Virus record (IMG/VR): IMGVR_UViG_3300035073_000011
Location: 1-43,556 of that record
From: a virus
Length of the DNA: 43,556 nucleotides
Reading direction: 5' to 3' (one strand)
Positions 7,914 to 34,631 of the stretch are shown here, in pieces. The position numbers and the translations under genes were made by a program. Positions within the stretch are counted from its first letter, which is position 1. Every line of letters begins with the position of its first letter. The notes below the pieces were generated by a model, which saw only the letters and a list, made by a program, of their open reading frames with translations, was not told where the DNA came from and did not search any database.

Positions 7914-7942
7914 TTGACACCAGCGCCGGGGCGTGGTATACT
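7914..7942 (+). promoter_or_regulatory. Sigma70 promoter, member of the repeated promoter family
   Basis: TTGACA at 7914-7919, a 17-bp spacer and TATACT at 7937-7942 with an extended -10 (TGG). This is the only + strand copy of a nine-member family. The -10 ends one base before the ATG of the 7944 gene, so RNA would start inside that gene. The promoter therefore probably serves the adaptor and tail genes downstream. Confidence 0.85.
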
Positions 7943-21438: not shown

Positions 21439-24065
21439 TGGCTGAACAATACGACACCAAAAAGTTTCAGTATATTCAGGGTCCTGACAACGAGTACCAT
21501 GAATTTCCTGTAGATATGCCGGATGATCAAGTCGACGCCGAAATGGCGACCCGATATAAGGATTATCAAGCTCCGGTTGAAGTTCCCGACGTTCCCCTTC
21601 AGCCCGTTCCGCAAACGACTCCTTATCCTGAGGGTGATTGGAGAAATGACCCAAGGGTGCAGGCAGATGCAGCCGCAACTGTTAAGCTACTGGAATATGA
21701 CAAATCTCCGTGGTATCATTTTGATACGCCGCCCTCAGCAGAACCAACAGGTCCCATCGAGATACCGCCTGCCGGAACCAAGGGGAAGCGACGTGGGCAG
21801 TTGTTGCCGATAGAAGCGGACTACGTTACCGACGAAACCGGCAAGATGGTTAACACCGGTGATTGGAATTTTGCTGTTCCCGGAATAATACATGATATTC
21901 CGCAGCAGATTGAAACGCTCGGTTCTCACCAACTAGGCACGGAATATACCGACGACGAAATAGGCTCCATGTTGGGTCTAGCTGGTTGGGGCGTAGGTGG
22001 AGACGTTATTGCAGGCGTTGGCAGGGGAGCGAAAACCTTTGCTCCTGAAAAGATTAATAGGAACACCATATACGGCGAGTTGCAGGGTGAAATCAGTTCC
22101 CGCGCTGCTAAAGAGAAGGGAACTCCCAGAGCCACTATATTTAGGCAGGAAGTGGAGAATATTAAGAAAAAGTACGGCAAACAGATGAACCAAGAGCAGT
22201 TGAACAAACTGGATGATATTGTTCGACGCGGCGATACTATGTCTCGCAGAGCTATTGAGGGCGTTGCGGGCTGGAAGGGATTACCAATTGGATTTGATGT
22301 AGGGCTTGCAACTATTGCATCCTCAACGCTACCCATTAAGCCGGGTGTGGGTATAGGAATAATGGGGACCAGAGCCGCCTTTGGGGCGGGTTCCAAAATT
22401 GTCAAAGGCGTGGCAAAAGCAATTAGGGGCAACCGGCTTAAGAAAGATCTGCGGGACGTTAAGAATACTGTAACACTTAGGGGCAAGACCGGCAGGGTTA
22501 CCACCAGCAGCAAGATCAAAGCTGAAAGAGTACGCGATGATTTCCGAGATCATCCCGACACCGCTGTAAAATCTGGCAGGCAGCCGACCGAAGCAGAAAT
22601 AAATGCAACTACCACTCCTGACTACGTTCCGCCGACGCAACCGCGTCCTACCAGTCCCATTTCGCTGGGCGGGACTAAAATGAATATTGGTGAACCAGTA
22701 AGGAAAACAACGGGCACCGATCCAAGATGGTTGTATGATCAACAGCAAAAGCAACAGGCAGCAGCTGCAAGGGCTGAGGCAGATAAATTACGCGCCACGC
22801 CGAACGCGCAGCCGGTGCCGTCTGGTGGAACCGCTACTCCTATTCCTGAGAGATTTGCCAGCGGCGCTACTTCCCCGATACCCAAGGCCGCAGACTCAAC
22901 TATCCAAAAGTTGAAGGAAAGATTCTTTGGTGGAGGCGGAAAAGTAGTTAAGCCTCTTCCAAAAGCTAAGCCTTCGGGCGGTAAAGTTTCTCCAGATGAA
23001 ACTGTCAAATCTTCGGAAATCATAACGCACAAACAAAACGTGAAAAAATTGGCTGAAGCCCAGAAGGAAATGGCGGATGTCAAGAAGCTACCTCGCGGAA
23101 CAGACCGCGATGTAATGATGGATGCTATCCAGAAGCGTATTGACTCTTACGAAGAAAACATCGCTAGAGCGACTGGCCAACTACCTTCGCAAGCTAAGAG
23201 TGTCCTTTCGGAGGCTGAGCATAAAGCCATAGTGGACACCCCGCCAGAGTATCGCAGCTTAGAACAAAAATTAGAAATGGCGAAGAAAAAATATGACGAC
23301 GCTTCGCAGCTGGAAGATTCGGATGCACGCCATTGGGGTAGGGTTGACGCCCGAGTTGAAATAGGTGAGCTAGAAGCGGAAATAGCAAAAAGCAGATTAA
23401 CTCCTGAGGCAAAGGCGGCTCAGGAAAGGTGGGTTGAAACTCAAAGGTTGGCAGCTGAAGCCAAGAAGAACGCTCGTAGCCCACAATCCGTGTTGGACGA
23501 GCAAAAAGCTATAATGGATGTGGAAGAAGCAGTTGCGTCTACGGTGCCAAAGCCTGAGCCGGTCGTCAAACTTATGACTACCAATGCTCAACGCGCCGCA
23601 ATGAGGGAACGGGGTTATACCGACGATGACATGTTTACCATGTCGCCTACACAAATCCACAACATTCTATCTCAGACGCCAAGGGCAGCGCCGAAAACGA
23701 CCCGTGTCAAGAAGGCGGAAGTAGCGCCCCCGACGGAATTCGAACCCGTAATAAAGCAGTCTTCGAAGGGGGTGTCGCTTTCGGGGGTCGCTCCTAAGGA
23801 AACTGTCACAACTCCCAAACAACCGCGCGTGGCCAAGAAATCGGCGGCCAGAGCGGAGAGAATGACTAAGACGAAACGCGTAACTCAGACTGAGGCGAGG
23901 CTTGCCCAGAGAATGGCCGACGAGCTAGCCACTGAGGAAGGTGTTCAGGGCATTGCCGATTACGTAAATAGCCAGAAAAAAGGCGCTCCGCTGGAATTAG
24001 ACGTTCCCGCTAAGCCGAAGAGGCGATCTGGTAAGGCGTCTGGACGGGGGAAGCGCGTCTATTGA
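21438..24065 (+). CDS. Large ejection/internal virion protein
   Basis: 875 aa. The N-terminus has the motif EYHEFPVDMPDDQVDAEMA, common at the start of phage ejection proteins. A hydrophobic glycine-rich stretch (about 285-330, PVGIG-like repeats and GAGSKIVKGVAKAI) could insert into membrane. The C-terminal half is long, charged and coiled-coil-prone, ending in a basic tail (KPKRRSGKASGRGKR). It is the last gene of the late strand and overlaps the convergent helicase gene by 56 bases. Confidence 0.78.
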   Translation: MAEQYDTKKFQYIQGPDNEYHEFPVDMPDDQVDAEMATRYKDYQAPVEVPDVPLQPVPQTTPYPEGDWRNDPRVQADAAATVKLLEYDKSPWYHFDTPPSAEPTGPIEIPPAGTKGKRRGQLLPIEADYVTDETGKMVNTGDWNFAVPGIIHDIPQQIETLGSHQLGTEYTDDEIGSMLGLAGWGVGGDVIAGVGRGAKTFAPEKINRNTIYGELQGEISSRAAKEKGTPRATIFRQEVENIKKKYGKQMNQEQLNKLDDIVRRGDTMSRRAIEGVAGWKGLPIGFDVGLATIASSTLPIKPGVGIGIMGTRAAFGAGSKIVKGVAKAIRGNRLKKDLRDVKNTVTLRGKTGRVTTSSKIKAERVRDDFRDHPDTAVKSGRQPTEAEINATTTPDYVPPTQPRPTSPISLGGTKMNIGEPVRKTTGTDPRWLYDQQQKQQAAAARAEADKLRATPNAQPVPSGGTATPIPERFASGATSPIPKAADSTIQKLKERFFGGGGKVVKPLPKAKPSGGKVSPDETVKSSEIITHKQNVKKLAEAQKEMADVKKLPRGTDRDVMMDAIQKRIDSYEENIARATGQLPSQAKSVLSEAEHKAIVDTPPEYRSLEQKLEMAKKKYDDASQLEDSDARHWGRVDARVEIGELEAEIAKSRLTPEAKAAQERWVETQRLAAEAKKNARSPQSVLDEQKAIMDVEEAVASTVPKPEPVVKLMTTNAQRAAMRERGYTDDDMFTMSPTQIHNILSQTPRAAPKTTRVKKAEVAPPTEFEPVIKQSSKGVSLSGVAPKETVTTPKQPRVAKKSAARAERMTKTKRVTQTEARLAQRMADELATEEGVQGIADYVNSQKKGAPLELDVPAKPKRRSGKASGRGKRVY

Positions 24066-25437
24066 ACACCGACTGGAATATACTCTCCTTTCGCTGCAGT
24101 GCCCTGTTCACCTTATAGTCTAATGAGGTGCCAAACATGTCAATATACAACACGCAGTTGGATGTTTGCCCGTGACGGTGAATGCGGTCCTCAACCTGAC
24201 TTCTATCATCCAAACTATAAGTATTCTCGAAAAAGATCATAGTGGAGCAGCGGTTATCAGGCTCCGGCCCGCCAAGAAGGGTGTGTCCGTACTTCGAGGC
24301 CTTTATCTGCGCGAGCATTACACGGCATTCCGGGCGGTCGTTGAATTTATCCTTCTCCGCTCGTATTTCCTCCTCGCGCATGCCCCCTTGTATGATCGCT
24401 GGTTCGTATTTCCTCAAAACTTCCCTAAGGATGCTAAGCGTATGCCGATGGTGGTAAGCAACCACGACTTTGCCAACCACCTCCTCTTCGATGATCTCCT
24501 TCAAGAGCCGAACTCTGGGGTTGGTGAGGGGATCCACGAGATCTTCCACGCCACCGTCTTCTCGAATGATAAACCCGCTGCTGATTTGCGCGAGTTTGAT
24601 GTACTTCGTAATGGCAGCGTCCACCGATACGTCGTCGCCGTTCTCCAACCACAAGACGAAATCATCTTCCATCTGCTTGTACATGCGCCGCATGTTCGCC
24701 GGCAACTCATACTCCCGTTGCGAGTAGAGCTTGGGCGGCAAGTCGGTCCAATCCGTCTTAGTGGCGCGGAACACGTGCGGGCTAATCAACCCAGCTAGAA
24801 TCTCCTCGTTCTGCGCGCCGATCACCTGCTTCATCTTGAACCCACCCATTCGGCAGAAGGCGGTCTTGAACGCGTAGTAATTTTTGCCATTCAGCTGACC
24901 GATCGCGCGCATCTGACCCCACAGGTCGTGCGGTCCCTGCGTGATCGGTTTTCCCGTTAGAATCCGTCTGAATCTGAATGCCGGAGCCATTCCGATCGCG
25001 GCCACAGTTTGCAGACTGTTGTTGGTCTTCAGCTGGATGCTCTCATCGAAAGTGATCCACGCAGGGCGGTCGTGGATGAACCTGAATATGTAGTCCCGCG
25101 TCTTCTGACTTCGGATTGCTTCATAGTTCACCACCAGCACTGGAGGGACGTCGAAGCTTCGTCGCAGGAAAGCCAGATTTCCATTATCGTCACCACTATT
25201 ATATACATGAACGTCAACGCCAAGATTATGCTTAGTCGCTTCATCGCGCCAGCCTCCCTTGAAGGAGTTGGGGCACACCACTACTTTTCGCTTTACCGTC
25301 CCCCGTTGGACTTCCCGCAGGAAGTCATGGTAGCTTACGAGCGTCTTGCCCAGCCCCATTTCCATAAAATAGCCGAACCCCGGCTTGCCGTCGGAGGCGA
25401 CGAGCGCCGCCTCCTGTACCTTCAGTAATTCAGTCAT
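24010..25437 (-). CDS. SNF2-family DNA helicase/translocase
   Basis: 475 aa from the ATG at 25437; the frame extends to 25515 but would overlap the MazG-like gene further. Motif I MEMGLGKT (25-32), motif II FDES (130-133), motif III-like LTGKPITQGP (160-169) and the C-terminal motif VEDRIHRHGQ define an SNF2 helicase. Such proteins in phage replication modules help remodel replication or recombination intermediates. The 3' end runs 56 bases into the convergent gene. It is the last gene of the nucleotide/replication operon. Confidence 0.9.
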   Translation of the reverse strand: MTELLKVQEAALVASDGKPGFGYFMEMGLGKTLVSYHDFLREVQRGTVKRKVVVCPNSFKGGWRDEATKHNLGVDVHVYNSGDDNGNLAFLRRSFDVPPVLVVNYEAIRSQKTRDYIFRFIHDRPAWITFDESIQLKTNNSLQTVAAIGMAPAFRFRRILTGKPITQGPHDLWGQMRAIGQLNGKNYYAFKTAFCRMGGFKMKQVIGAQNEEILAGLISPHVFRATKTDWTDLPPKLYSQREYELPANMRRMYKQMEDDFVLWLENGDDVSVDAAITKYIKLAQISSGFIIREDGGVEDLVDPLTNPRVRLLKEIIEEEVVGKVVVAYHHRHTLSILREVLRKYEPAIIQGGMREEEIRAEKDKFNDRPECRVMLAQIKASKYGHTLLGGPEPDNRCSTMIFFENTYSLDDRSQVEDRIHRHGQTSNCVLYIDMFGTSLDYKVNRALQRKESIFQSVFNRRASPVQTPYQIASSA

Positions 25438-25828
25438 GGATTGGCGTCCCTTCAGGTGTATTTCTCCAATCGGCGTGGCCTTGATTGCGCAGCGCCACGA
25501 ATATAAGAAAGGCAAAGTTAGCTGTGTCGAACAACTCGATCAGCGTGTTTACGTCTTCCCTGTTTTGCTCAAACTGGTCCACAAACTCCTTTAGTTCCAC
25601 CCGGAGCATTTCGGTCATGCTCGGTATGTCGGTTATTTCGGGGGTGCGCTTATGCGCGTTCATGTGGAGCTTGTATACCATCCCCTGAAAGAACTCTCGC
25701 AGCCGCTCCGAAAGGAGTTCCAGCGACGGCGGGATCTCAACGGATAATGTAGATGTCTTCCGATTTAGGCCCTTGACCCGCAACAATGCCAAAGCTTCCT
25801 GCGCCTGCGATGTCGAATAGGAACTCAT
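25430..25828 (-). CDS. MazG-like nucleotide pyrophosphohydrolase, candidate MazZ
   Basis: 132 aa. An all-alpha NTP pyrophosphohydrolase is indicated by ExxE (E78-E81) and ExxD (E98-D101), with the family segment MVYKLHMNAHKR (50-61) ahead of them. In Z-genome phages MazZ turns dGTP into dGMP for PurZ, and the location next to purZ supports that role. The chosen ATG has GGAG seven bases upstream, so the gene truly overlaps purZ by 92 bases in another frame. A general house-cleaning pyrophosphatase is the alternative. Confidence 0.82.
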   Translation of the reverse strand: MSSYSTSQAQEALALLRVKGLNRKTSTLSVEIPPSLELLSERLREFFQGMVYKLHMNAHKRTPEITDIPSMTEMLRVELKEFVDQFEQNREDVNTLIELFDTANFAFLIFVALRNQGHADWRNTPEGTPIHD

Positions 25829-26762
25829 CCTGTCTCTCCTTATCTAGATAGTTGAGAAAGTTTACAAATACGAAGTCCGGGTCGTTTGCGCGTAGCGCGT
25901 CTTGAAACTGATTCCACGAGAATGTTGCTACTCTTCTGATTCGCTTTGTTACTGTGGTCCACTCCGGATCGACGCCCAGGTCCTTCCAGTCTATTTCGAC
26001 TTGATCGTCGTACCAGTTACCGCTGTGTCCCTCTTCGGTGTTTCCAACTCGAATCGGGAACGTGCGGATCGTCATATAAGTACGGGCCAGCAGCCGGGGT
26101 GGAACACGAGCATCTGCCAACCCTTGCATAACCGTGCATTCGCGGCTGGTTACGTGGGGGTAAAAGTGTGAGTTGATGCCCAGACTAAATCCCTGCGCCA
26201 CTTCCATGAAGTATGGGTGTTCCTCAGGGTGTAGATTATGATTCATGGTGGTTACGTTGGGCGGTGTCTTAATGTTCCAGCCGCCCCAAACTGCATCTTT
26301 ATGCCGAGCGATCTTCAGCATTAGCGCTCCGCCTGTTCCAGACAGCGTGCTTGCTATCCCCGGCGCTCCGGTCCCCCATTCCGCCTCTCTAGCGAATTGA
26401 TCTACAATAGCCGCGTTGGGGTGAATATATATCTTCACCTGAGGGTACCTTTCGGCCTCTTCAAACAGAATAATTGGATCGATCACAGCACCCGCCGAAA
26501 GATAGGCAGCACAGTTCCCGCCCATCAACGTCGTAGCCACCGCGAAGGTGGGCAGCTGTTTTAGTACGTGCTTCTCGCCCTCGTGGTAGAAGGTGTGCCC
26601 GCTGTTGGGACCACCCGAATAGATGGCCCCTCTAAACTCTAAGTTTGTCTCCCGCGCCTTTTCGGCGAGCCAAGCGGTAAGTGCACCCTTGCCTGTAGAT
26701 CCGAACTGCCCATCGACGACGCAATGGACGCCTTCTTTATTGAACAGCGTTTTCTTCACCAT
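25737..26762 (-). CDS. purZ: PurZ, 2-aminoadenylosuccinate synthase
   Basis: 341 aa, shorter than bacterial PurA (about 430). It joins aspartate to dGMP, the first committed step to 2-aminoadenine (base Z). The P-loop is DGQFGSTGKG (17-26): Ser22 stands where PurA has its catalytic Asp in GDEGKG, the recognised PurZ signature. The catalytic His is in GPNSGHT (H56), and STLSGTGGA corresponds to the IMP/dGMP-binding loop. The ATG has GGAG upstream and overlaps the DUF6378 gene by 26 bases. Neighbours (MazG-like, family A polymerase) fit a Z-genome locus. Confidence 0.93.
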   Translation of the reverse strand: MVKKTLFNKEGVHCVVDGQFGSTGKGALTAWLAEKARETNLEFRGAIYSGGPNSGHTFYHEGEKHVLKQLPTFAVATTLMGGNCAAYLSAGAVIDPIILFEEAERYPQVKIYIHPNAAIVDQFAREAEWGTGAPGIASTLSGTGGALMLKIARHKDAVWGGWNIKTPPNVTTMNHNLHPEEHPYFMEVAQGFSLGINSHFYPHVTSRECTVMQGLADARVPPRLLARTYMTIRTFPIRVGNTEEGHSGNWYDDQVEIDWKDLGVDPEWTTVTKRIRRVATFSWNQFQDALRANDPDFVFVNFLNYLDKERQDEFLFDIAGAGSFGIVAGQGPKSEDIYIIR

Positions 26763-27147
26763 TAATCTCCTTCAAGGCTTCCGCAACTGCGCTTTCCACT
26801 TTTTCAACAGCATTGTTGCTGCTAGGATCGAACGGGCGATCGGGTAATTGCATCATACCAGCGAGAGCGGCGTAACCAATGCTGTCGACGAAGTTATCTC
26901 GGTTGGCGGGATCGCCGTAGACAGATCGGGCAATCTTCAACATCTCCATCATTCGCGCCACGTCGTGCGGCCTAACCTCTACGGAGTCGCCGCGACAAGC
27001 AAACACGTGGCCCAAGTAAGATGTCCACAAATCAGCTATCATTTGGAACGAATTTTCGGCGTGGCCGTGAAGACCTGGGCGTTCCTTGCTGATGGTATTC
27101 CCGGCCTTAACTATTAGTTCTACAGCTTTTCTCAAGTCACTACTCAC
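26737..27147 (-). CDS. DUF6378-family protein
   Basis: 136 aa, helical. The pattern HGHAENSFQMIADLWTSYLG (about 27-46), then PHDVARMMEMLKIARS and DNFVDSIGYAALAG (about 82-95) matches the DUF6378 family as I remember it. The spaced acidic residues (E31, D84, D88) in helices recall MazG-type pyrophosphohydrolases, but the function has not been shown to my knowledge. It overlaps purZ and the VRR-NUC gene, so a role in nucleotide supply is a reasonable inference. Confidence 0.75.
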   Translation of the reverse strand: MSSDLRKAVELIVKAGNTISKERPGLHGHAENSFQMIADLWTSYLGHVFACRGDSVEVRPHDVARMMEMLKIARSVYGDPANRDNFVDSIGYAALAGMMQLPDRPFDPSSNNAVEKVESAVAEALKEINGEENAVQ

Positions 27148-27544
27148 TTGCTAGTCTCCCGTGATAAAATTGAATCAGTTGCTCGTTGAAATCCATTTCG
27201 CGCGACGTCACCGAAAAGCAGTCGGTTAGCTTCGCGATCTGGGCAGTCTCGTGAAAGTAAAAGGTATCGTCTTTCCACCCCACGAGAATTGCTATGGCGT
27301 GGCTTGCACCCGCCTTGTTTATCCGGTCCATTTCGATGTACTGACGCGGTGAAGGGGCTAATTGTTGCCCCCGCACCTTCTTCACTTCTGCGAAAAACAC
27401 CGGGCATCCCCATGGAATAAGGATAGTGTCTGGCATACCGACGAGGAACTGATCTTCGATGCGGCGAGCGTAACCGCCCGCTAGTCGCACCGATTTCACC
27501 ATTTGGGCCTTGATCGCTGCTTCGCCAACCCGCCCAAATGTCAT
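27140..27544 (-). CDS. VRR-NUC-type PD-(D/E)XK nuclease
   Basis: 134 aa. The catalytic set is GMPDT (D39) and FAEVKK (E53, K55), with Q68 in SPRQYIEMDR following. This is the VRR-NUC arrangement, used in phage replication modules to cut branched DNA or flaps. It overlaps both neighbours by 4 to 8 bases. Substrate preference cannot be read from the sequence. Confidence 0.87.
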   Translation of the reverse strand: MTFGRVGEAAIKAQMVKSVRLAGGYARRIEDQFLVGMPDTILIPWGCPVFFAEVKKVRGQQLAPSPRQYIEMDRINKAGASHAIAILVGWKDDTFYFHETAQIAKLTDCFSVTSREMDFNEQLIQFYHGRLASE

Positions 27545-27783
27545 CGGTTGTCATCCGCTTGGAAGTCGCCCAGTTGCACCTTGCGATACCACCAATCCGT
27601 TACCTTGAACATGAAGTTCCCGTCGCCATCGCTTTCGTTATGGTCGACTGTACACTTCACAGGCAGCCAATACATATAATGATCTTCGTACAAGGGGATT
27701 GTGACTTCAATCAGCCGGGACTTATCGTTAGACCAGCGGATCTTGCCTTCGAATTCGTGTGTCTCTTCGTTGCGCACTGTCAT
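27541..27783 (-). CDS. Small conserved replication-region protein
   Basis: 80 aa, beta-rich and acidic, with the segments RNEETHEFEGKIRWSNDKSR and KVTDWWYRKVQLGDF. No family is recognised. GGAGGT lies immediately before the ATG, but the promoter at 27790-27818 places the transcription start at about the ATG itself. The gene may thus be read from a leaderless RNA or, on longer transcripts, from the Shine-Dalgarno. Confidence 0.7.
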   Translation of the reverse strand: MTVRNEETHEFEGKIRWSNDKSRLIEVTIPLYEDHYMYWLPVKCTVDHNESDGDGNFMFKVTDWWYRKVQLGDFQADDNR

Positions 27784-27789
27784 ACCTCC

Positions 27790-27818
27790 AGTATATCACG
27801 CCGCGACCGGGCTGTCAA
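27790..27818 (-). promoter_or_regulatory. Sigma70 promoter of the repeated family, inside the polymerase gene end
   Basis: On the - strand TTGACA lies at 27813-27818, the spacer is 17 bp and TATACT is at 27790-27795 with an extended -10 (TGA). It overlaps the last codons of the polymerase gene and would start transcription of the 27783 gene, VRR-NUC, DUF6378, purZ, MazG-like and helicase genes as a unit. Confidence 0.9.
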
Positions 27819-29604
27819 GGGTAGCTTCGTACCGATCTAGTTTCGAGCCGTAAGAGGCTCTAGCCCAATCTGAACCACTGCCCACGTCGAATGGAATGGG
27901 CACCATCAGCTTGAACTCCGTGGCCACGTTTTCCAGCAGGTTTACCAGCTCCGTATTCGGGTGACCGGGGTCGCGCTGCCATAGTACGGAGTCGTGGATC
28001 GACAGCAGCATCTGAATACGATCGGAGTAAGTGTCCTCGTATTGGAACGCTCGCAGCATGCAAGTCTTTATATGGTCGCCACCAGAATTCTGAATGATGC
28101 GGCTAACAGCGCGATAAGAATACGCAATATCACCGCACCTAGCAATACGCCCAAGTATAGAGCGAACATAGCGCTGATCCTTGAACTTCGCGACTGCGGC
28201 GAGCTGGAATTCGCGTATCGCCGGGAAAGCGTCGTGTAGAAACTGGTTATGTAGCTTAGCTGCCTCTGCAACTGAGCACCTCATGTGGTTCGCCAGCGTC
28301 TTCGCCGACATCATGGTGAGCATTCCCATACCAAGTCGCTTGGCCCGGTCACGATCACCCAAGCCCAAGACTTCGTTTGCACGATCGTGAATGTCGAACT
28401 CTCCTGTGCGATATCCGTGTAAGAGACTTGCATCTTCGGAATAATGAGTAAACAGTCGCGGCTCTTGCTGTCGAGCGTCTGCTTCCTCAAGTAGCATACC
28501 TTCATCAGGGACAATAAGTCGGCGTACGACCCTTCCCACGTCCATGTTCCTTTTTGGAAATGCCTGGAGATTCGGATCCGAACAGGAAAGTCTTGCTCCT
28601 GCAACTCCATAGTCATCGGACTTTGATTGGTTAAGAATTGGGTGTACTCGTCCTCCAATGTTATGCGTATCGATGAGGGGGGACATGAATGAGTCACGTG
28701 CCTTCTCCAATCTCCGTACCGAAAGGATAGCCTCCCCGATTTCGTTAGTCTCCAGCCAGCTTTCGGTGAAGGAAGCCGTCCCCTTATCGGTGTGGTTGAA
28801 CATGGCGTCGTCGTAGCCGTTCGCCCGGTAGAGGGCTTCCACCTCCTTGCCAGACCGAGCGTTGAATCCCGCTGAGAAGACGCTGAGCTTCTCCTTGATC
28901 GCCACGTTGATTTCATCGCGGACGCGTGAGGCGTATTCCCCATCAACGCGCAATCCGCGATGGTGCATCCTAGCTAGGTACGGAATAAGATCGCATTCCA
29001 GCTTGTGCACCTTCCGCAGCCCCATTTCGTCCAGTAGAGGCTGTTGCGCCTCCCACAGCGCCAGCGTCGTAATACCGTCGCCCGTGGCGTATTCCACCAC
29101 AGTTGGGTCGTCGCCCGGCATCTTCCAAAAATTCTTCATCTGCTTCTGGTCAGGCAGTCCCCCGAAACGCCGGGCCAGTTCCGCATACATGGCGGCTCCC
29201 TTCTTTCCAGGGAGTCCCCGTCTTTCGGCGCAGGCTTCGAGGCTGTATCCGACGGTGAGATCGTTGATGAGGGCTTCATTGACCATTGTGTCTTCGACAG
29301 GGGCGGTGATCTGTACATTGCAACGAAGAGAAATGCGAAGATCAAAGCCCAGATTATGGCCGACAGTAGTAAAGCCCAGGCGACCCCTCTCCAGAAACGC
29401 CACGGCAAGTGACTTCTCCCATTCTTCGGCGTTGGGAATGTTGCCTCCGCCCTCGTGCCGAACCGGGACGTATAGCGAATGCGATTTATCGGTGATAACC
29501 CATCCGACGACTTTATCTGTGACGGTGAGTCCGGTGGTTTCCGTATCGAATGCCATGATAGGCGCTTCGCGTACGATTTTGAGCGCAAGTTCTGGATCAA
29601 TCAT
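27796..29604 (-). CDS. dpoZ: Family A DNA polymerase, DpoZ-type
   Basis: 602 aa, with a 3'-5' exonuclease and a polymerase domain and no 5' nuclease. Exo I has D20/E22 (FDTET), Exo II VGHNLGFD (D88), Exo III YATGD (D176). Polymerase motif A is EADARQQEPR (D376, E381), motif B R418-x3-K422 and motif C IHDS (D538). Positions equal to Pol I F762, Y766 and E883 are Met426, Thr430 and Ser539. In Z phages the cognate polymerase favours dZTP over dATP; the purZ neighbourhood suggests this role here. Confidence 0.88.
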   Translation of the reverse strand: MIDPELALKIVREAPIMAFDTETTGLTVTDKVVGWVITDKSHSLYVPVRHEGGGNIPNAEEWEKSLAVAFLERGRLGFTTVGHNLGFDLRISLRCNVQITAPVEDTMVNEALINDLTVGYSLEACAERRGLPGKKGAAMYAELARRFGGLPDQKQMKNFWKMPGDDPTVVEYATGDGITTLALWEAQQPLLDEMGLRKVHKLECDLIPYLARMHHRGLRVDGEYASRVRDEINVAIKEKLSVFSAGFNARSGKEVEALYRANGYDDAMFNHTDKGTASFTESWLETNEIGEAILSVRRLEKARDSFMSPLIDTHNIGGRVHPILNQSKSDDYGVAGARLSCSDPNLQAFPKRNMDVGRVVRRLIVPDEGMLLEEADARQQEPRLFTHYSEDASLLHGYRTGEFDIHDRANEVLGLGDRDRAKRLGMGMLTMMSAKTLANHMRCSVAEAAKLHNQFLHDAFPAIREFQLAAVAKFKDQRYVRSILGRIARCGDIAYSYRAVSRIIQNSGGDHIKTCMLRAFQYEDTYSDRIQMLLSIHDSVLWQRDPGHPNTELVNLLENVATEFKLMVPIPFDVGSGSDWARASYGSKLDRYEATLDSPVAA

Positions 29605-32093: not shown

Positions 32094-34631
32094 TCAGAAC
32101 TTTCCATAGATCGTCTCTTTCCTGCCTTTCCACAGCGGGCGTAGCTTTATAGTGCATTCATTTTTCCCGTGATCGTCGGCAGTGAACTGAAACCTAGGCT
32201 CCATAACCACCGAAATAGCAGCCCCAAATTTATCGTGGATGGTGGCTATCTTATCCGTGAATCGAATGTAGTTTCGGCCTTCCTCCGTATATGTTTCGAT
32301 GATGCCAGCGTCCTTGAACTCAGTCATTACACGCATTCCGTTGATTGGCTGCATGCCTAGTTCACGGCACACCTCGACTACCCTGCGGTTAAGGTCAGCC
32401 GGGACCCACGGGAATGATAGGTCTAGATCTTCGTGAATTCGCCCGTCTTCGATTATGTACTTCGCTACCCGCCTCGCCCACGACATGTTCGAAGCGATGA
32501 TGTCGGAATCGTTGCTGGCGGAATGATCGATTGACTCCACTTCGGTCTTGGTAACCGACATAGTGGAGAAATAATGCATATAATGCTCCATTACAGTTCG
32601 ACTTTTTATAAATTCGTCTAGTTCGATAAACCACGGCTTCAATCCAGCTGCCCACTGTCTAAATTCGTTCTCGCTTAGATGAAGAAAGTCCTTGTCGTAC
32701 GCCTTTATATAAAACAGCGCCCGGTCCTGTACGTTCTGCTGACCTATGTTCATGTCCAGTCTGTTGCTGGCGAACATCAGGCGGGCGTGTATTCGGTAGT
32801 TCCGTGCGGATATGTACTTTTCGGATCCTGACACGTCAATGTTACGTATCAGCTTCTTGATCTCTTCCGTGCTGGAATCCCCCTTAAATCGCGCCTCGTC
32901 CATGAACACAAACATCTTGTCGACGAACGGTTCGATACTGAACGCTCCATCTAGTAGCTTCGGTGACGCTGACCCCCACAACCCGTGAAAAAGCGATTGC
33001 ATAAATGTATTGCCCAGAAACGATTTCCCAACTCCCTGCCCACCGATGATAACAGGCGCTACTTGTTGTTTCGTACCGGGGTGCTGAATTATCCACGCGA
33101 TCCACCTTTTCAGCCATGTGGCTTGGTTTTCGTTGTTTCGTGTCAGATAGCCAAACAGCTTATCTAGGTATTCTTCACACTTTTGTAAAATCTCTGGCTT
33201 CACTACCTCGGGGACCGAAAGGGGCCAGCCCCGCCATGTGTTGAACATAGCTAGCGCGGTTTTATTCTCGTCACTGTCAGGGATAACTTCTCCGATATTC
33301 GTGATTCGATAAATTCCTCCTGGCCCAAGGTCAGGGTATAAGTCTCTTCCGCCAACCCTTTTCCTGAGAGTGGATGATTCAAAAATTTTGAATGCTTCCT
33401 TAGGTTTCCCGCCAACTCTAATAATATCACCCTTATGTCTTCGTTCAAGCTCGTGTCCTTCGTGGACGTATCTTCCAGCAGAACTAAATCGCACTCGATC
33501 GAGATAGTTATTGTCTGATTCGTCATACAGGTACCTTTCGGCGAAATTGGTGAGCAGAGAAACGTCGGAACCCGGCATGAACACCGCGCGCAGCGCCATT
33601 ATCGCATCAACGCCGAAATACTGCTCCATCGCTGGCCAGCCGGGGATCTTCGCGTCGGGGTTCCGGTCCAGCTTTTCGCAGGCGTCGTGGAACGCGCGGA
33701 TTCGCATGTGCTTTTCGTCGTCGGACATGAAATCACATATGAACCCGATCAGGGATTCGGCTATGTCGTCTGTGTCGACGGGACAAAATACGTCCTCGGA
33801 AATGACTTCGTGGTTGTTAACGGACTGACCTTCTCGCACAACACGAGCAAGCCATCCCGCGACTTTTTGGGCGGCAACTTGGCGATTACCTTCCAGCCAG
33901 TGGTTTCGGACCACATAAGCCATCGTCCCGAAAGCAATCGCACGTATAACCTCGTTGAAGGAGACTCTTCTTGGAGTAGTCGCTGCAACCTCATTAAAGC
34001 TCTTCGCTGGACTGTTGTACTTATCGTACCAGACGGAAAGATCATAGACCCCCTCTTCATCCTTGCTCTTGTAAATGGAACCCGGCATGACCGTTTGTTT
34101 TGCTGCCTTGGCCACGTTCTGCGCTGTGATGTTCGTCGGGTACGATCGCAGCTGCGTGTGAAATAACTTGCCGCCTAGTTTGAACTGCTTTGGCTCAAAT
34201 TTAACCAATGTGTCCCAGTTTACTGATTCGTTCTCCCCAAGTTGAACCATCACGTGGGTTGGGATCTTCATCGACGCGCGCCCAAATCGGAACCGCGTAT
34301 CTATATGAAGATGGTCCATCGCCGAAAGGATACACTGGTTGTATTCTGGGTCGTCGGAATCAATGTCAACGTCCATCCAGCCTAGCTGAAGGTTGAAGCC
34401 AGCGTTGGTGAAGCGAGCTTCCTCGTCGTCGATCCAATTCTGCAAGTCCGTGTCGTGGAACTTTGATTCGTACCACTTGGAGTCGAATGGACTCTTGTCG
34501 CTGGTCTTAAGGAAGACCGCGCCCACCTGTATGAAATTGTCGTTGATGTGTTTCGTGATCGCTCGTTGGGTGTTCAGTATGGCTTCGTCAGACGATTTGA
34601 GGACGAATCCCCCCTCGATCTTTTTGAACAC
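32094..34631 (-). CDS. PrimPol-SF3 helicase (primase-helicase)
   Basis: 845 aa. The N-terminus is an archaeo-eukaryotic primase: GWMDVDIDSDD with D87/D89 and RASMKIPTH with H126. The C-terminal half is an SF3/D5-type helicase: Walker A GGQGVGKS (530-537), Walker B FVFMDEA (574-580) and SNRLD after it. It would prime and unwind for the phage replisome. The start is GTG at 34631 with AGGGG upstream, on a leader of about 100 nt that folds strongly (34651-34725). It is the first gene from the 34740 promoter. Confidence 0.9.
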   Translation of the reverse strand: MFKKIEGGFVLKSSDEAILNTQRAITKHINDNFIQVGAVFLKTSDKSPFDSKWYESKFHDTDLQNWIDDEEARFTNAGFNLQLGWMDVDIDSDDPEYNQCILSAMDHLHIDTRFRFGRASMKIPTHVMVQLGENESVNWDTLVKFEPKQFKLGGKLFHTQLRSYPTNITAQNVAKAAKQTVMPGSIYKSKDEEGVYDLSVWYDKYNSPAKSFNEVAATTPRRVSFNEVIRAIAFGTMAYVVRNHWLEGNRQVAAQKVAGWLARVVREGQSVNNHEVISEDVFCPVDTDDIAESLIGFICDFMSDDEKHMRIRAFHDACEKLDRNPDAKIPGWPAMEQYFGVDAIMALRAVFMPGSDVSLLTNFAERYLYDESDNNYLDRVRFSSAGRYVHEGHELERRHKGDIIRVGGKPKEAFKIFESSTLRKRVGGRDLYPDLGPGGIYRITNIGEVIPDSDENKTALAMFNTWRGWPLSVPEVVKPEILQKCEEYLDKLFGYLTRNNENQATWLKRWIAWIIQHPGTKQQVAPVIIGGQGVGKSFLGNTFMQSLFHGLWGSASPKLLDGAFSIEPFVDKMFVFMDEARFKGDSSTEEIKKLIRNIDVSGSEKYISARNYRIHARLMFASNRLDMNIGQQNVQDRALFYIKAYDKDFLHLSENEFRQWAAGLKPWFIELDEFIKSRTVMEHYMHYFSTMSVTKTEVESIDHSASNDSDIIASNMSWARRVAKYIIEDGRIHEDLDLSFPWVPADLNRRVVEVCRELGMQPINGMRVMTEFKDAGIIETYTEEGRNYIRFTDKIATIHDKFGAAISVVMEPRFQFTADDHGKNECTIKLRPLWKGRKETIYGKF

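Follow-up and report, generated by a model that had tools for sequence, protein, structure and literature searches.

A block of genes on the minus strand of the 43,556-base stretch analyzed here (the window, which is the whole of the linear IMG/VR virus record IMGVR_UViG_3300035073_000011, from which a little terminal sequence is possibly missing) is best explained as a module for the synthesis and replication of DNA in which 2-aminoadenine (Z) takes the place of adenine, and the virus that carries it as a podovirus and a relative of Ochrobactrum phage OH. In order, the block encodes a family A DNA polymerase, an 80-amino-acid protein, a nuclease, a DUF6378 protein, PurZ, a MazG-like protein and an SNF2-type helicase. 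Z-genomes belong to the few cases in which a DNA base is replaced in nature, and the exclusion of adenine is their less understood half; known PurZ phages rely on DatZ, and PurZ0 phages on DutZ, DmtZ or DUF5664. The synthesis of Z-DNA by the window phage is very likely, and its virion DNA would contain Z and lack A. DatZ has been lost, and the account that we favor, in which a type-B MazZ-2 protein is the main excluder of deoxyadenosine triphosphate (dATP) with help from the polymerase and PurZ, has in our judgment a somewhat better than even chance of being right as a whole.

The identification of PurZ is supported by matches to PF00709 (E = 1e-21) and to the PHROG PurZ family (E = 5e-56), and its closest solved structures are the PurZ enzymes of phages phiVC8 and S-2L. 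The best NCBIfam model is amino_Aden_PurZ at 215 bits, below a curated cut-off of 300 bits that is not a biological criterion, and by sequence the protein is a divergent member of the family. Its P-loop reads GQFGSTGKG, with Ser22 at the position of the catalytic Asp of PurA, and this serine is kept in 80 of 80 aligned relatives. Residues V241, R240, T273, R280 and R146 of the S-2L deoxyguanosine monophosphate (dGMP) and donor sites correspond to V239, R238, T269, R276 and R153 in the window, and most residues of the dGMP pocket as defined for S-2L (PMC8342488) are retained, with H203 and V204 standing where S-2L has Y and C. It would be hardly credible to read the enzyme as an ordinary PurA that raises adenylate synthesis in a phage with normal DNA; it does fall within the adenylosuccinate synthetase superfamily, but Ser22, the PurZ pocket residues, the best matches to PurZ structures and models, and the synteny with MazZ-2 and with the DatZ of relatives all speak against this.

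The PurZ donor-site residues N301, F302 and N304 are identical to those of phiVC8, which makes ATP or dATP the likely phosphate donor. S-2L PurZ has been reported to use dATP in this role (PMC8342488), and such use would deplete some dATP. In 43 contigs (L028, L050 and most of a large sister clade) the positions equivalent to S-2L N305, F306 and Q308 carry S, H and D instead of N, F and N. PurA has a guanine-binding Asp, and the Asp at the sister-clade donor site resembles it, which may reflect a switch of donor from ATP to GTP.

The MazG-like protein taken alone has no convincing match in Pfam, PHROG or the GenBank phages. It aligns with gp33 of OH (E = 8e-13 for the pair) and with phiVC8 MazZ-2, and we assign it to MazZ-2 on this phiVC8-type homology, on its four conserved acidic residues and on a gene that adjoins purZ; the metal motif (E78xxE81 with E98xxD101) is invariant across the family. 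The protein is modeled with confidence as helical, and the matches of the model to MazG/HisE folds (2p06, 2yxh and 7bgm, with E above 0.4) are weak, so that we use them as support only. The gene starts with an ATG that has its own Shine-Dalgarno sequence inside the 3' end of purZ. A previous sequence-only reading had proposed a Z-DNA metabolism in which PurZ, recognized by GQFGSTGKG and Ser22, is fed by a MazG-like dGTP hydrolase with ExxE and ExxD motifs whose gene overlaps purZ. Both proteins are present on the minus strand with these features, Pfam, PHROG and NCBIfam agreeing on PurZ, and the proposal is supported by the identity and pocket residues of PurZ, by MazZ-2 homology and by synteny. 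The DUF6378 gene and the kinship with the DatZ-bearing isolate OH were not part of that reading. Among relatives we distinguish two MazZ-2 sequence types, type A with KGRWE... and type B with KxTPT, a one-residue insertion and ANFAFLAYVALR; the window protein is of type B.

The window phage has indeed lost DatZ. A hidden Markov model built from five DatZ sequences gave a best E of 0.18 over all open reading frames of the window, and a 17-sequence DatZ profile, PF13023 and PF12917 found no DatZ or HD protein there while detecting the DatZ-bearing controls, which rules out a hidden DatZ elsewhere in the record. The same reading had seen no DatZ or HD phosphohydrolase and had suggested a profile search of all proteins as a check, after which its observation holds. 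Between purZ and the helicase gene OH carries gp33 (MazZ-2), gp34 and DatZ (gp35); in the window record the corresponding interval is free of gaps, and the helicase start codon overlaps the mazZ-2 stop codon, so that there is no room for a datZ gene and no DatZ remnant lies between the two. DutZ, DmtZ and DUF5664, the replacement enzymes of the PurZ0 type, were not found in the window. DatZ was likewise not found in the whole records of many DatZ-less relatives by three different profiles with positive DatZ-bearing controls. In a DatZ-less sister clade (L050 and others) a conserved protein of about 57 residues (WLEKxYGxxWxxRMEQHI) occupies the place of DatZ between mazZ-2 and the helicase gene; it is missing from the window.

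A PurZ search of IMG/VR gave 80 loci, nearly all with the same block, and 79 relatives were scored for DatZ, the contigs being partly redundant. DatZ is absent from 39 of the 79, and all 39 carry type-B MazZ-2; the 26 contigs with type A all have DatZ. Type B forms a single clade in the MazZ-2 tree (97/89) and yet is dispersed over the PurZ tree, where it appears at no fewer than four points; transfer between lineages is therefore probable, as far as these phylogenies indicate. The state of DatZ changes at least eight times on the tree and the type of MazZ-2 at least five times, and a five-contig PurZ clade adjoining the window (100/99) mixes type A with DatZ and type B without it. Across 16 large genomes with 508 gene families, DatZ was the only one distributed as 8/8 against 0/8, none was distributed the other way round, and none was gained upon DatZ loss; a gene acquired wherever DatZ is lost was thus discarded as a candidate for these 16 genomes. 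Removal of dATP by type-B MazZ-2 explains most economically which genomes tolerate the loss of DatZ, and the earlier thought that adenine is excluded by the polymerase or by another protein can be narrowed to this enzyme as the most likely candidate. Dual hydrolysis of dATP and dGTP has precedents in DUF550/DUF5664 and in DutZ (PMC12884076).

Several points weigh against this account. Type B stands alongside DatZ in 10 contigs, so it is not always a replacement for DatZ; the independent pairs in which both traits differ number three, and although all three go in the predicted direction, the phylogenetically corrected p of 0.25 is not significant; the base specificity of MazZ-2 is not readable from sequence; and the sister-clade protein of about 57 residues and DUF6378 remain alternative candidates. 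Other arrangements also occur among the relatives. Four contigs (L061, L062, L066 and L068) keep DatZ with no recognizable MazZ-2 between purZ and datZ. DatZ is also missing from L181 and L184, two contigs that branch deeply, and was not found in the 58 kb of L181; there, two tandem type-B-like MazZ-2 genes (L181:3989-4740), whose presence without DatZ speaks for the favored account, follow a divergent purZ with the P-loop GQFGSEGKG and precede a ribonucleotide reductase-like gene. A type-B-like MazZ-2 and an HNH-like extension share one reading frame in another contig, binned as Gottesmanbacteria (L201:6957-7808).

In the scheme that we infer for the window phage, MazZ-2 would convert dGTP to dGMP, PurZ would join dGMP and aspartate to give dSMP, host enzymes would carry dSMP on to dZTP, from which the family A polymerase of the phage would insert Z opposite T with proofreading. 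Type-B MazZ-2 would hydrolyze dATP as well as dGTP and thereby keep dATP out, aided by a polymerase that selects and proofreads and by PurZ, which would draw on dATP as phosphate donor. More tentatively, and at less than even odds, type-B MazZ-2, by both supplying dGMP and destroying dATP, may have spread among PurZ lineages and let DatZ go repeatedly, alongside Z-copying family A polymerases of a third kind, with Thr or Ser in place of the helix-O tyrosine.

That polymerase matches PF00476 (E = 8e-44) and carries a 3'-5' exonuclease domain (PF01612), and the exonuclease motifs (D20-E22, N84..D88 and Y172..D176) and catalytic D376 and D538 are all intact. A proofreading family A polymerase is thus present in the block, as had been read from the sequence, and the label DpoZ-type given to it at that time stands in part: its closest counterpart in the PDB is phiVC8 DpoZ and phage_DpoZ ranks first among the NCBIfam models, but the score of 255 bits is under the 500-bit cut-off and Thr replaces the DpoZ Phe in helix O. 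Here K422...M426...T430 of the window correspond to K758, F762 and Y766 of the Klenow fragment. The position of Tyr766 is Phe in both DpoZ groups, DpoZ-1 and DpoZ-2 (PMC8599892), Thr or Ser throughout the OH-like clade (Ser in OH) and Tyr in the six phage polymerases of the set without known PurZ. Fingers insertions 2 and 3 of phiVC8-like DpoZ are absent from the window polymerase in alignments, and insertion 1 was dropped as a marker because phage polymerases without known PurZ have it too. The Thr and the low model score point to a separate polymerase clade; in the tree the OH-like polymerases form a clade of their own (100/99), with p = 0.46 in the approximately unbiased test of an ancestry shared with DpoZ-2.

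These features bear on whether the polymerase could exclude adenine by itself, with a type-B MazZ-2 that acts on dGTP only and a highly Z-selective proofreading enzyme that made DatZ dispensable. The distinctness of the clade, with T or S at the helix-O tyrosine, M at the position of Phe762 and an intact exonuclease, would suit such a role, and phiVC8 DpoZ alone already favors Z, but at physiological dATP that enzyme still lets in a trace of A (PMC8599892). The Klenow Y766S substitution is reported to open the active site and reduce fidelity (PMC3121766), and the helix-O residues are alike in members with and without DatZ, showing no co-variation with it, so we regard exclusion by the polymerase alone as unlikely, though a serious contender.

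Alternatively, dATP might be removed by a host dNTPase or by another phage protein that has gone unrecognized, for example DUF6378 or one of the small early proteins. In nearly all relatives the gene of DUF6378 (E = 2e-22) stands immediately ahead of purZ, and YfbR-like host enzymes exist in bacteria. However, DUF6378 is as frequent in DatZ-bearing phages and occurs in many phages without PurZ, its fairly confident all-helical model has no match in the PDB, and no gene family was gained with the loss of DatZ, which together make this alternative improbable. The phosphofructokinase label that PHROGs and RefSeq give to DUF6378 proteins, including those of the window (26737-27147) and OH (gp31), is unsupported since these are short, all-helical proteins with no PDB match.

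It is also conceivable that dZTP is made while dATP is tolerated, giving mixed A/Z DNA. The window has no detected dedicated dATPase, and expression of PurZ, MazZ and DatZ in E. coli gave partial Z substitution that was lower without datZ or mazZ (PMC8342488). The full module, including its distinct polymerase, is nevertheless kept across dozens of DatZ-less contigs, and we consider partial substitution very improbable.

Ten structural proteins scanned against Pfam mark the phage as SU10-like. The plus strand carries its structural genes (terminase, SU10-like portal, capsid and adaptor), and the genes for replication and early functions lie on the minus strand. The features of the block are collected in Table 1. 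The primase/helicase listed there is possibly a second, non-selective polymerase. The promoter predicted for the purZ operon belongs to a near-identical extended -10 promoter-like family (TTGACA...CGTGgTATACT) with ten matches in the window against 1.9 expected by chance; sites are listed at 7914, 27818, 31344, 32072, 34768, 36562, 37492, 39454 and 41210. A search of genome contigs for a host returned five distant contigs of metagenome-assembled genomes and no assignment.

Table 1. Coordinates of the Z-DNA module and associated features in the window.
Feature	Position	Strand	Remarks
SNF2-type helicase	24010..25437	-	ATG (25437) overlaps mazZ-2 stop (25432-25430)
mazZ-2, type B; MazG-like all-alpha nucleotide pyrophosphohydrolase, 132 aa	25430..25828	-	E78xxE81, E98xxD101; 92-nt overlap with purZ
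AGGAGA Shine-Dalgarno	25835..25840	-	6 nt ahead of mazZ-2 ATG, within purZ
purZ, 2-aminoadenylosuccinate synthetase, 341 aa	25737..26762	-	Ser22; N301, F302, N304
DUF6378 protein, 136 aa	26737..27147	-	E = 2e-22; directly upstream of purZ
Small nuclease-like protein	27140..27544	-	phrog_93/phrog_5702; syntenic with OH gp30
80-aa protein, OH gp29 homologue	27541..27783	-	First gene of purZ operon
Extended -10 sigma70-like promoter, TTGACA-17-TATACT	27790..27818	-	Predicted; head of purZ operon
Family A DNA polymerase with 3'-5' exonuclease, 602 aa	27796..29604	-	PF00476, PF01612
Primase/helicase (DUF5906, D5-like)	32094..34631	-	Counterpart of OH PrimPol gp22

A large environmental clade with neither DatZ nor enzymes of the PurZ0 type amounts to a natural knock-out experiment, which suggests that DatZ is dispensable and singles out one compact candidate enzyme, while the OH-like polymerases, with their unexplored helix O, offer material for Z-DNA enzymology. 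PurZ phages have been described as mostly DatZ-bearing (PMC12884076), the 2021 definition of the Z-cluster was drawn from phages with both datZ and purZ (PMC8342488), and the 2020 paper on OH does not mention aminoadenine (PMC7139368). We came across no account of PurZ phages that form a clade without DatZ, nor of a split of MazZ-2 into two types, in the accessible literature, subscription papers lying outside the search.

The nearest isolate is OH (vB_OspP_OH, Wolominvirus, NC_070933), which has the same order of polymerase, gp29-like protein, nuclease, DUF6378, PurZ, MazZ-2 and helicase, with identities to the window of 51% for PurZ, 58% for the polymerase and 45% for DUF6378, and shares the unusual helix O. 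In place of the type-A MazZ-2, gp34 and DatZ that OH encodes from purZ to the helicase gene, the window has just a type-B MazZ-2. Vibrio phage phiVC8 (PurZ, MazZ-2, DatZ and DpoZ-2) is alike in its N, F and N donor residues, MazZ-2 family, proofreading PolA and podovirus form, but its DatZ, its DpoZ Phe459 and its fingers insertions 2 and 3 have no counterpart in the window. The PurZ0 phages Wayne and Ghobes (DutZ, DmtZ, DUF5664-1 and DpoZ-1) likewise lack DatZ and clear dATP and dGTP with other enzymes; the window has no gene related to dUTPase, NDT or DUF5664, its PurZ is about 30% identical to theirs, and its polymerase belongs to a different group. With cyanophage S-2L (PurZ, MazZ-1, DatZ and PrimPol) the window shares the logic of dGTP to dGMP to dSMP, while S-2L has MazZ-1 instead of MazZ-2, relies on DatZ as its main adenine excluder and carries no PolA.

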